Origin: Frankiales bacterium
Lineage (GTDB): Bacteria > Actinomycetota > Actinomycetes > Mycobacteriales > SCTD01
Assembly (NCBI GenBank): GCA_025965615.1
Contig: JAOPWP010000068.1
Location: forward strand, 1-34,541
Reading direction: 5' to 3'
Length of the DNA stretch: 34,541 bases
Shown: piece after piece, positions 5,419 to 15,636 of the stretch
Layout: each line of letters opens with the position of its first letter
Position numbering within the stretch: position 1 is the stretch's first letter
Program-made: the position numbers and the translations under genes
Notes under the pieces: generated by a model
What the model saw: the letters and a program-made list of their open reading frames with translations, nothing else
Told to the model about the DNA's origin: nothing
The model's database searches: none

Positions 5419-7914
5419 TCAGCGGCCGGGGTAGCGCCCGGTGAGCACCCGGCTCGTGAGCCAGTCGTCGAAGGCCGCCGGCGGCATGGGGCGGCTGATC
5501 AGGTAGCCCTGTGCGACGTCGCACCCCAGCGTCCTGAGCAGGTCCCGGCTGCCGACGTCCTCGAGCCCCTCCGCGACCACCAGGAGGCCGAGACTGTGCC
5601 CGAGGTTGCAGATCGCCGCCACGATCGCGGTGTTGCCCGCGTTGCTCGTCAACGACATGACGAACCCCTTGTCGATCTTGACCTCGTCGACGGGCAGCCG
5701 TTGGAGGTAGGCGAGCGACGAGTAGCCCGTCCCGAAGTCGTCGACCGACAGCTTCACCCCGACGTCGTGGAGGCTCTGCAGGACGGCGATCGCCGCGTCG
5801 GGGTCGGTCATGACGCTGTTCTCCGTCACCTCCAGCGTCAGCATGGGGGCGGGGACGCCGTGCAGGGCCAGGCTGGCGCGCACCTCGTCGACGAACCCGG
5901 GAGCGAGCAGCGCGCGCGGTGAGACGTTGACGGCGACGCCGAGGCCCCACTCGTCGGCCCAGGCGCTGCACTGCGCGAGGGCCGTGTCGAGCACGACGCG
6001 GGTCAGGTCCACGATCAGGCCGGTGTGCTCGGCGATCTGCACGAAGTCGTCCGGTGGGATGAGTCCGAGCACCGGGTGCGGCCAGCGCACGAGGGCCTCG
6101 GCCCCGGTCACCCGTTCGTCCCTCAGCCTGACCTTGGGCTGGTAGTGGACCAGCAGGCCGTCGTGCTCGATGGCGGTGCGGAGCTCGCCGACCAGGGCCA
6201 GCTTGCGGGGGCTCGCGTGGTCGGCGGCAGGGTCGTAGACGCGGGTGGGCACCCGGGCGCTCTTCGCGGCGTACATGGCGACGTCTGCGCGCTGCAGCAG
6301 CTCCGCGCTGTGCTGGCCGTGCTCGGGGAACAGCGCGATGCCGAGCGAGGCGCGTACGTCCACCTGTACGCCGTCGAGGGTGCAGGGCACGCGCAGGGCC
6401 AGCTGCAGCGCCTCGGCGAACGTCAGCGGGTCCTCGTCGCTGACGCTCGAGGGGACCAGCAGGGTGAACTCGTCCCCACCGAGCCGCGCCACCGTCACCT
6501 CCGGCGGCACCGCCCCGGTGAGCCGTCGTGCCACCTCCCGGAGCAGCTCGTCGCCGTTGTGGTGCCCGAGGGTGTCGTTCACCTCCTTGAAGCCGTCGAG
6601 GTCGAGCAGCAGCACGGCGCACCGCTCGCCGGGGTGCCGCTTGGTGAGGCCCTCGAGCCGCTCGTGGAACAGGGCGCGGTTCGGGAGGCCGGTGAGCAGG
6701 TCGTGCGTGGCGTCCTGGCGCAGCCGGGCCAGCAGGCTGCTGTTCTGCAACGCCACGTTGAGCTGGGTCGCGACGACCGTCAGCAGCCGGAGGTCGGCGT
6801 CGTTCAGCGACGACATCGACCCGAGCCGGTTGGCCACGAGCAGGAACCCCTGCTCGCCGCGGTCCGACGGCAGCGGGAGGCCGACGGCGTCGTGCAGCCC
6901 CGCTTCAGGGGCCAGGCCGGACCGCCGGTGCCGGGCGGGCGTCGTCGGGCGCAGGATCTCGACCGCGTGGAGCGCCGCCGAGCGCATCAGCTCGGCCTGG
7001 ATCGGCGGTGCTCGGCGGACGGTTTCGTCCTCCCGCAGCACGTAGACGTCACCGGACCCGACCACGCGGGCCCCCGGCAGGATCAGCAGGGCCGTCTCGG
7101 CGGAGAGCAGGTCGCGGCTGTGGTGGAGCACGGTCTGCACCAGCTCCTGCGTGCTGCGACTGCCGGCCGCGGCGACCATGAAGTCGTGGACCTGCTCGAG
7201 TGAGCGGTGGCGCCGCAGCAGGACCGAGTAGGCCCGGTAGGCGCCGCCGAGGGAGAAGGCGACGACGAGCAGCAGCCCAGCCGCCTCGGGCTCACGATCG
7301 AGCAGGACAACGACGATCAGCGCGAGGCTCGTGTTGAGGGCAGCCGAGAACAGCAGCGGTACGACGGTCAGCGGGATGTCCCCGGCCTTCGGGGGACCGT
7401 GCAGCAGGCGGACCGCCAGGAGCAGCAGGAGTCCGCTCAGGGTCGTCACGACCATGACCGCGCCGAAGGCGCGCAGCCACGCCATGGCGCCCCCGCCGGC
7501 ATCGAGCTCGCCGGCCACGGTCACGAGGACCGCGACCTCGAGGCCGTACAGGGCTGCGTTGAACGTCGCCTTGTGCGCCACCGTGCGCCGCACGAAGGCG
7601 ACGAGCAGGGCTCCGGCGAGCCGGCCCACCAGCAGCGGCAGCGGCGCGGCCAGGAACAGCCCGACGACCATGGGGAACTCGCTCAGGGACAACGAGACCG
7701 TCTGGCGGTTGAGCTCGACGTGGATCTGCGTCGTCTCGGCGAGCGCGAAGGCGATGGTGAGCAGGCCCACTGCCACCCAGAAGCCGTCGAGGTCGTCGAG
7801 GGCGCGGGGGGCCAGGAACGCCCACAGGGCAGCGGCGCAGACCGCCACGGCGACGGTCAGCGGCGCCAGCTGACGCCCCGGGGAGCGGACCTGAGGGGAG
7901 GGCGGCGGGATCAT
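5419..7914 (-). CDS. membrane-associated GAF-GGDEF-EAL protein (putative bifunctional diguanylate cyclase/phosphodiesterase)
   Basis: ATG at 7914 with GGTGGAGG upstream (ORF opens at 7935); N-terminal hydrophobic segments; RLGGDEFTLL (GGDEF), GAEALVRW (EAL), DDFGTGYSSLAYLQRLPVDEVKIDKGFV. Confidence 0.93.
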   Translation of the reverse strand: MIPPPSPQVRSPGRQLAPLTVAVAVCAAALWAFLAPRALDDLDGFWVAVGLLTIAFALAETTQIHVELNRQTVSLSLSEFPMVVGLFLAAPLPLLVGRLAGALLVAFVRRTVAHKATFNAALYGLEVAVLVTVAGELDAGGGAMAWLRAFGAVMVVTTLSGLLLLLAVRLLHGPPKAGDIPLTVVPLLFSAALNTSLALIVVVLLDREPEAAGLLLVVAFSLGGAYRAYSVLLRRHRSLEQVHDFMVAAAGSRSTQELVQTVLHHSRDLLSAETALLILPGARVVGSGDVYVLREDETVRRAPPIQAELMRSAALHAVEILRPTTPARHRRSGLAPEAGLHDAVGLPLPSDRGEQGFLLVANRLGSMSSLNDADLRLLTVVATQLNVALQNSSLLARLRQDATHDLLTGLPNRALFHERLEGLTKRHPGERCAVLLLDLDGFKEVNDTLGHHNGDELLREVARRLTGAVPPEVTVARLGGDEFTLLVPSSVSDEDPLTFAEALQLALRVPCTLDGVQVDVRASLGIALFPEHGQHSAELLQRADVAMYAAKSARVPTRVYDPAADHASPRKLALVGELRTAIEHDGLLVHYQPKVRLRDERVTGAEALVRWPHPVLGLIPPDDFVQIAEHTGLIVDLTRVVLDTALAQCSAWADEWGLGVAVNVSPRALLAPGFVDEVRASLALHGVPAPMLTLEVTENSVMTDPDAAIAVLQSLHDVGVKLSVDDFGTGYSSLAYLQRLPVDEVKIDKGFVMSLTSNAGNTAIVAAICNLGHSLGLLVVAEGLEDVGSRDLLRTLGCDVAQGYLISRPMPPAAFDDWLTSRVLTGRYPGR

Positions 7915-7986
7915 GCAGCCTCCACCCCGAGCCACTCGCGCCGCCGTCGCGAGCCCCTTGCTCAGCGTGGGCGGCAGGAGATCAGG

Positions 7987-8241
7987 CTAGTTCAGCGATC
8001 CGCCGTTGAGCGATCCGCCGTTGAGGGACCCGCCGTTGAGCGATCCGCCGTTGAGCGACCCGCCGTTGAGCGACCCGCCGTTGAGGGACCCGCCGTCGAC
8101 CGTCACCACCGGGGTCTTGGCCTTGCCGCCCGCGGCGCTGTCGAGGCCGAAGGTGGCGCCCTGGAACGCCAGGCAGATGCTCGCCACAGCGACGGAGAGG
8201 GCGAGGGCGATCGTGCGGGCCGGCGTGGTGACGCGGGTCAT
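7987..8241 (-). CDS. small secreted protein with seven tandem C-terminal GGSLN pentapeptide repeats
   Basis: 84 aa MTRVTTPARTIALALSVAVASICLAFQGATFGLDSAAGGKAKTPVVTVD(GGSLN)x7 stop; signal-peptide-like N-terminus; AAGGAG Shine-Dalgarno just upstream of ATG. Confidence 0.8.
   Translation of the reverse strand: MTRVTTPARTIALALSVAVASICLAFQGATFGLDSAAGGKAKTPVVTVDGGSLNGGSLNGGSLNGGSLNGGSLNGGSLNGGSLN
7990..8094 (-). repeat. 15-bp x 7 in-frame tandem repeat (GGC GGR TCS CTS AAC)
   Basis: Seven contiguous 15-bp units read directly; differ only at codon third positions. Confidence 0.97.
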
Positions 8242-8524
8242 GTCTGCTCCTTGGTGGCTGCGGCTTGCGCGGGTTCGCGCTGGGTTGCGTGCCTTGCGTA
8301 TCGGCCGCTGGGACAGGCATCTTGACGATGCAGAGCACCCAGTGCGTCACAACCGCTCCGCCTACCCGGGCCCCTTACGGTCCGTCGGAACCGGCTTCCG
8401 CCTCGGCGGGCGCGAGGACCACGTGCACCCTGAGGTCCTCGCTCGCGCCGACGAACCGGTGTGGGACACCGGAGCAGCTCCCGGTAGGCCCTGCTCCCGT
8501 GCGCCTGCAGGGAGTGGCGATCGG

Positions 8525-15413: not shown

Positions 15414-15494
15414 GGCACCTCGCAGGCGTGGCGGACCCCGGCTGGCGTCCGTGCGCGGGCATGGTCCCACGCGCCGCCGGTTACGCTGGCGGCT

Positions 15495-15597
15495 GCAAGC
15501 GACAGCAGGAGAAGGAAGCCGGTGCGACTCCGGCGCGGTCCCGCCACTGTGACCACGTCCTCCCGGACGTGGAAGTCAGACACTTCGGCTGTCGATC
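15495..15597 (+). ncRNA. cobalamin riboswitch (class I-like aptamer)
   Basis: AGCAGGAGAAGGAAGCCGGTGCGACTCCGGCGCGGTCCCGCCACTGTGACC...GGAAGTCAGACAC core; closing stem CGACAGC 15500-15506 / GCTGTCG 15588-15594; stem-loop CCACGTCC-TCCC-GGACGTGG. Confidence 0.97.
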
Positions 15598-15636
15598 CGT
15601 CCACCCGGGGCGCGGACCCCGAGGAAGGCGTTCCCC

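Follow-up and report, generated by a model that had tools for sequence, protein, structure and literature searches.

What could a protein of 84 residues, composed of a leader and seven copies of one pentapeptide, do for the cell that encodes it? The question is raised by a gene of a Frankiales bacterium located in a stretch of 34,541 nt (contig JAOPWP010000068.1, hereafter the window; Table 1). The first-pass annotation described this gene by itself and overlooked what matters most, beyond the interval it covered: the gene fills a conserved slot immediately before a gene for a membrane GGDEF-EAL protein.

Table 1. Features of the window, with the evidence for each.
Feature	Position	Strand	Evidence or remarks
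Partner gene, 831 aa: multi-TM membrane domain, GAF, GGDEF, EAL	5419..7914	-	Pfam, TM segments, motif alignment
GC-rich inverted repeat CTCGCG...CGCGAG, no T-run	7915-7986	-	Between tail stop and GGDEF-EAL start; may act in translation or mRNA processing
Repeat-tail gene, 84 aa	7987..8241	-	Translation, single copy, same-genus counterpart in matching context, Shine-Dalgarno sequence
(GGSLN)7 array, seven 15-bp units	7990..8094	-	TRF; codon comparison of units
Signal-peptide-like N-terminus, basic n-region and hydrophobic core IALALSVAVASIC	8152..8241	-	Hydropathy; exact cleavage site uncertain
Shine-Dalgarno sequence AAGGAG of the tail gene	8247..8252	-	5 nt before ATG
Cobalamin riboswitch	15461-15607	+	RF00174, 45.9 bits; cobalamin genes (CobN, CobT-like, CobB/CobQ-like) also in the window

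A small gene with a repeat conserved at the peptide level

Translation of the minus strand, which the first-pass annotation had left unstated, yielded MTRVTTPARTIALALSVAVASICLAFQGATFGLDSAAGGKAKTPVVTVD(GGSLN)7 followed directly by the stop codon and confirmed the claim of an 84-aa reading frame ending in exactly seven repeats. A basic n-region is followed by a hydrophobic stretch, the linker AAGGKAKTPVVTVD and the seven units. The hydropathy profile agrees with the signal-peptide-like N-terminus proposed earlier, and the protein is predicted to be exported. Within the window, the array is the top-scoring tandem repeat (TRF score 172; runner-up 70), and the tail gene is present in one copy in its own genome.

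The seven DNA units represent four distinct sequences, which vary at third codon positions only. Over all pairs of units we counted 28 synonymous codon differences and not one non-synonymous difference. This bears out the earlier view that the variation is purely synonymous and, together with a codon-shifted counterpart in a related genome (see below), that selection acts on the peptide.

Searches for known families gave no match in Pfam at an E-value of 0.01 and none in NCBIfam at 0.1, in accordance with the first-pass annotation, which had not recognized a named family. Specifically, a Peptidase_S8 domain is absent (Pfam, E 0.01), and the Pfam search did not reveal a protease domain of any kind. 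An Rfam scan of the window detected no RNA element near the tail gene. Single-sequence AlphaFold2 modeling produced short strands every five residues, with pLDDT values of about 64 to 81 in the repeat blocks and a pTM of 0.31, a model of low confidence, for which a PDB fold search returned no meaningful match.

The five-residue period and the central Leu are shared with the pentapeptide repeat proteins (PF00805, PF01469). GGSLN differs from these in having Gly where Ala, Ser, Val or Thr is usual, and seven units amount to less than two solenoid coils. We rejected membership in this family: the protein scored 8.3 bits against PF01469 (cut-off 26.4), far below the curated threshold, and PF00805 was not among the listed hits. 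The repeat is atypical for the pentapeptide pattern, as had been noted. The counterpart in the related genome gave no hits to either family.

A counterpart in the same genus keeps the tail and the neighboring gene

Among nine genomes of the genus, including the source genome, we found the gene in one further member, G001, meaning that the homologue with signal peptide and repeat that the first-pass annotation had proposed to look for is present in a related genome. It encodes 74 aa, with a different signal peptide that carries a clear AxA-type site (...GAAPASA), followed by GGSLS(GGSLN)6. Ser is encoded by AGC throughout the G001 array and by TCG or TCC in the window array. Over seven aligned units, the two arrays differ at 29 bases, corresponding to 16 synonymous and one non-synonymous codon differences. 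The DNA of the array has turned over, and the peptide was retained.

In both genomes the tail gene is located upstream, and on the same strand, of a gene for a membrane-GAF-GGDEF-EAL protein, with gaps of 72 nt in the window and 60 nt in G001. The two GGDEF-EAL partners are 52% identical. Besides the tail gene, the window has just this one gene of at least 80 aa in common with the G001 contig of 11 kb; the flanks are otherwise unlike, and therefore the pair was conserved while its surroundings changed. Matches to the partner enzyme near 50% identity were restricted to these two of the nine genus members, the next best within the genus reaching 37%. Taken together, the GGSLN reading frame is a real gene and neither a chance occurrence nor a merely open frame.

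Across the order, (GGSLN)2 was detected in three of 399 genomes, namely the source, G001 (in matching gene context) and one with an unrelated insertion in a nucleotide-sugar dehydrogenase-like reading frame. A protein search with the 84-aa query alone mostly returned low-complexity noise apart from G001. We discarded the matches in Pyxidicoccus, Paractinoplanes, a planctomycete, Halomarina and a Lachnospiraceae MAG as motif recurrences or weak matches, and none of the readable GGSLN-type arrays (L031, L032, L033) is a small tail gene beside GGDEF-EAL. Two occurrences illustrate such settings: GGSLN x3 and GGALN x2 are inserted into the N-terminal region of such a dehydrogenase-like frame, unrelated to the tail slot (L003, G046:C248, 1273-2643), and GGSLN x5 occurs independently near the N-terminus of a lipoprotein-like frame of Pyxidicoccus fallax (L031, 5680-6891).

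The partner is a membrane GGDEF-EAL protein with intact motifs

We took the ATG at 7914, preceded by the Shine-Dalgarno sequence GGTGGAGG, as the start of the partner gene. Its motifs RLGGDEF, EALVRW and DDFGTGYSS align with the solved structure 5M3C and are intact in both domains. Because they match those of solved active proteins, the partner probably makes c-di-GMP, degrades it as a phosphodiesterase, or does both. The multi-TM domain has short loops only. No membrane family of Pfam matched it, although a single homologue out of 20 gave a weak MASE9 match, and no recognized ligand pocket was found in it.

Repeat tails are linked to this enzyme family across the phylum

For a wider survey, the membrane and GAF regions of 20 such enzymes were combined into a profile (A1), which we searched across the class, the order and the phylum. 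Upstream reading frames, delimited without a dedicated gene caller, were scored by repeat period, blind to residue identity. Each locus was counted once, provided that its upstream sequence reached 700 nt, which gave 147 non-redundant loci. A strong repeat tail just upstream on the same strand was present at 67 of the 147 enzyme loci and at 3 of 760 control anchors; all three control hits were loci originally fetched for GGSLN similarity. Since some of the profile seeds were themselves tail-linked, the resulting 46% is not an unbiased prevalence; without the 19 model seeds, a hand count gave about 54 of 128 loci. The phylum search added 25 loci for which upstream sequence was available, and about 12 of them have a tail as judged by eye. 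A third or more of the enzyme homologues have no tail upstream. Conversely, in the 24 genomes of the family, all six GxxW arrays (at least three consecutive matches, downstream sequence present) directly precede GGDEF-EAL genes. The tail and the GGDEF-EAL gene are linked across the phylum.

The window pair belongs to this pattern. The GGSLN gene directly precedes, in the same orientation, the gene of an enzyme that matches the A1 profile with about 343 bits, its stop lies 237 nt before the profile start, and its tandem repeats occupy the extreme C-terminus with a penultimate Leu. Of the 75 repeat tails found by period alone, 53 carry Trp at this position; GGSLN and GASLT have Leu and GPSFN has Phe. 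The C-termini of tail partners at many loci (e.g. L002, L049) follow a rule of Trp, Phe or Leu, one further residue and the stop, and the protein end itself may be the recognized element.

The commonest occupants of the slot, found in many genera, are S8 subtilases with Trp tails such as GSTWS, GLRWN, ASSTW, SATSW and SSARW; three were identified by Pfam, and the others are presumed to be subtilases from their length and the similar sequence before the tail. One of them belongs to a second, paralogous locus in the same genome as GGSLN (G000:C225), an S8 protease ending in WAGRTWATGSWS before a GGDEF-EAL gene. Like the GGSLN gene, these subtilase genes are upstream of GGDEF-EAL on the same strand; their products are exported, as is predicted for GGSLN, and share the five-residue period of the type small-small-S/T-hydrophobic-polar at the extreme C-terminus. 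In contrast to GGSLN, with its 84 aa, Leu and no protease, they have a protease domain, Trp and a length of about 400 to 740 aa.

Two other groups came up in these searches. Some of the homologues found first, the LigA-flanked GGDEF-EAL genes, lack the A1 membrane domain, and a separate clade of A1-type enzymes (L071, L081, L086, L099, L157 and relatives) has an upstream transporter-like (MFS-like) reading frame and no tail.

Tiny proteins fill the slot in many lineages

In many lineages the slot is filled by a small protein without an enzyme domain. The filler in G427 consists of 122 aa with GASLT x18 and a classical signal peptide, in which the AxA site is clear; unlike GGSLN, it passes the PF00805 threshold (104.5 bits, cut-off 20.2). 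Other tiny repeat fillers carry GASWN x3 (G489), ASNGWQ x4 (G429), DGAGWG x2 (G027), DIVWQ x4 (G232) and GTRWG x2 (G425), and a GPSFN peptide is also found upstream of GGDEF-EAL. Unrepeated tiny fillers end in FDWN, FSWN, VEWT, HKWY and AIWG; they were chosen partly for their W ending and are weaker evidence. A few fillers are without a signal peptide, among them MNGPSFNGPSFNGPSFN (G403), MSDTKTPGTGWH... (G446), MSQTVIATDVTPGALWGYTSGALWG (G029) and DGNTWTFV x5 (G031); the leaderless, repeat-bearing fillers at L162, L163, L064, L060 and L208, of which MNGPSFNGPSFNGPSFN is an example, measure 17-47 aa.

In a tree of 158 enzymes, the tiny partners were strongly clustered, with 8 label changes against 29.5 after shuffling; none of the 500 shuffles gave so low a number. 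The enzymes next to GGSLN, GASLT and GPSFN share one tiny-rich group, whose fork is not strongly supported. Adjacent genes that are inherited together cluster on trees anyway, so the tree is no proof of contact.

A possible role as input of the GGDEF-EAL partner

For most membrane GGDEF-EAL proteins, no input is known to date. We propose, at roughly even chances, that the GGSLN protein acts as an exported tail in its own right and is the cognate partner or input of the downstream enzyme. The tail, cleaved or membrane-tethered, would be displayed outside the membrane and engage the multi-TM sensor domain of the GAF-GGDEF-EAL protein; its amount, array length or processing would then alter c-di-GMP synthesis or breakdown. 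Export of the tail, its contact with the membrane domain, its role as input instead of output and the control of c-di-GMP turnover are the presumptive parts of this reading.

We favor it because the G001 counterpart keeps the tail despite a different N-terminus and different Ser codons, because the pair persists while the flanks differ, and because of the excess of strong tails at enzyme loci over controls and the invariable GGDEF-EAL neighborhood of the GxxW arrays. It also draws on the occupation of the slot by GASLT, GPSFN, GASWN, DGAGWG and other tiny proteins, on their clustering in the enzyme tree, on the intact GGDEF and EAL motifs and on the S8 version with a Trp tail in the same genome. 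Against it stand the short loops of the membrane domain and its lack of a recognized pocket, the tail-less homologues, a third or more of the total, and the Leu of GGSLN at a position held by Trp in most tails. What an extracellular ligand chiefly leaves unexplained is the absence of a signal peptide from some fillers, those of 17-47 aa.

Those same short, leaderless fillers speak for a leader or arrest peptide, whose translation, through repeat codons or the nascent chain, would control how strongly the downstream GGDEF-EAL gene is expressed, as is the case for SecM and MifM and their downstream genes. The position immediately ahead of the enzyme gene at every locus found and tails that end exactly at the stop, mostly as W-x-stop, are in agreement with this, but many tails terminate full-length S8 proteases, the main observation which this model does not explain. 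In addition, arrays of at least 18 perfect units far exceed the need of an arrest motif, G001 and G427 have classical cleavable signal peptides, and the downstream gene has its own Shine-Dalgarno sequence; we regard this explanation as quite improbable. Somewhat less doubtful, although still rather unlikely, is a surface, cell-wall-binding or structural element that is co-expressed with a c-di-GMP enzyme for surface life without direct contact. The usual fusion of the tail to an S8 protease is expected of an anchor, and Trp/Ser/Gly repeats could bind glycans. However, tiny tail-only proteins would carry no cargo, the linkage concerns one specific enzyme family and GGSLN lacks aromatic residues. 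We regard a neutral minisatellite that closes a dispensable small frame as very improbable: GGSLN arrays inside unrelated reading frames (L003, L031, L033) indicate that such repeats can arise independently, but the synonymous-only variation, the codon-shifted counterpart, the conserved pairing and the phylum-wide slot are disfavoring it.

The direction of signaling could also be reversed, with a membrane GGDEF-EAL protein sensing internal c-di-GMP and holding or releasing an exported protease or free tail. In the LapD-LapG system, a membrane GGDEF-EAL protein controls an exported protease (PMC3032545). The window pair resembles this system in the genetic tie between a membrane GGDEF-EAL protein and a partner predicted to be exported, and the slot is most often filled by exported proteases. 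The GGDEF and EAL domains of LapD are catalytically degenerate, in contrast to the motifs here, which are intact against 5M3C. The membrane domain is different as well, the slot proteases are S8 serine enzymes whereas LapG is a cysteine protease, and the window tail offers no LapG-type or any other protease to control. We do not assign the pair to the LapD-LapG systems and consider this direction improbable.

Returning to the tail as an input, a wider version is less likely than not: a system across the Actinobacteria in which exported Trp, Leu or Phe tails, free or on proteases, could be cognate ligands of membrane GGDEF-EAL enzymes, a form of peptide-to-c-di-GMP signaling with a lineage-specific tail code. 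In the open-access literature we found no published description of GGSLN, of the S8 subtilases with Trp tails, of GGDEF together with S8/subtilase and repeats, or of a MASE9 link; a description elsewhere is possible. The slot suggests an undescribed route that feeds a signal into c-di-GMP control. With a leader and seven pentapeptide copies, the GGSLN protein would be a minimal, synthesizable candidate input for a membrane GGDEF-EAL protein, and the many tail variants beside homologous enzymes make specificity swaps testable. For the repetitive C-terminal tails of actinobacterial subtilases, which sequence searches leave unnamed, this would be the first proposed role.
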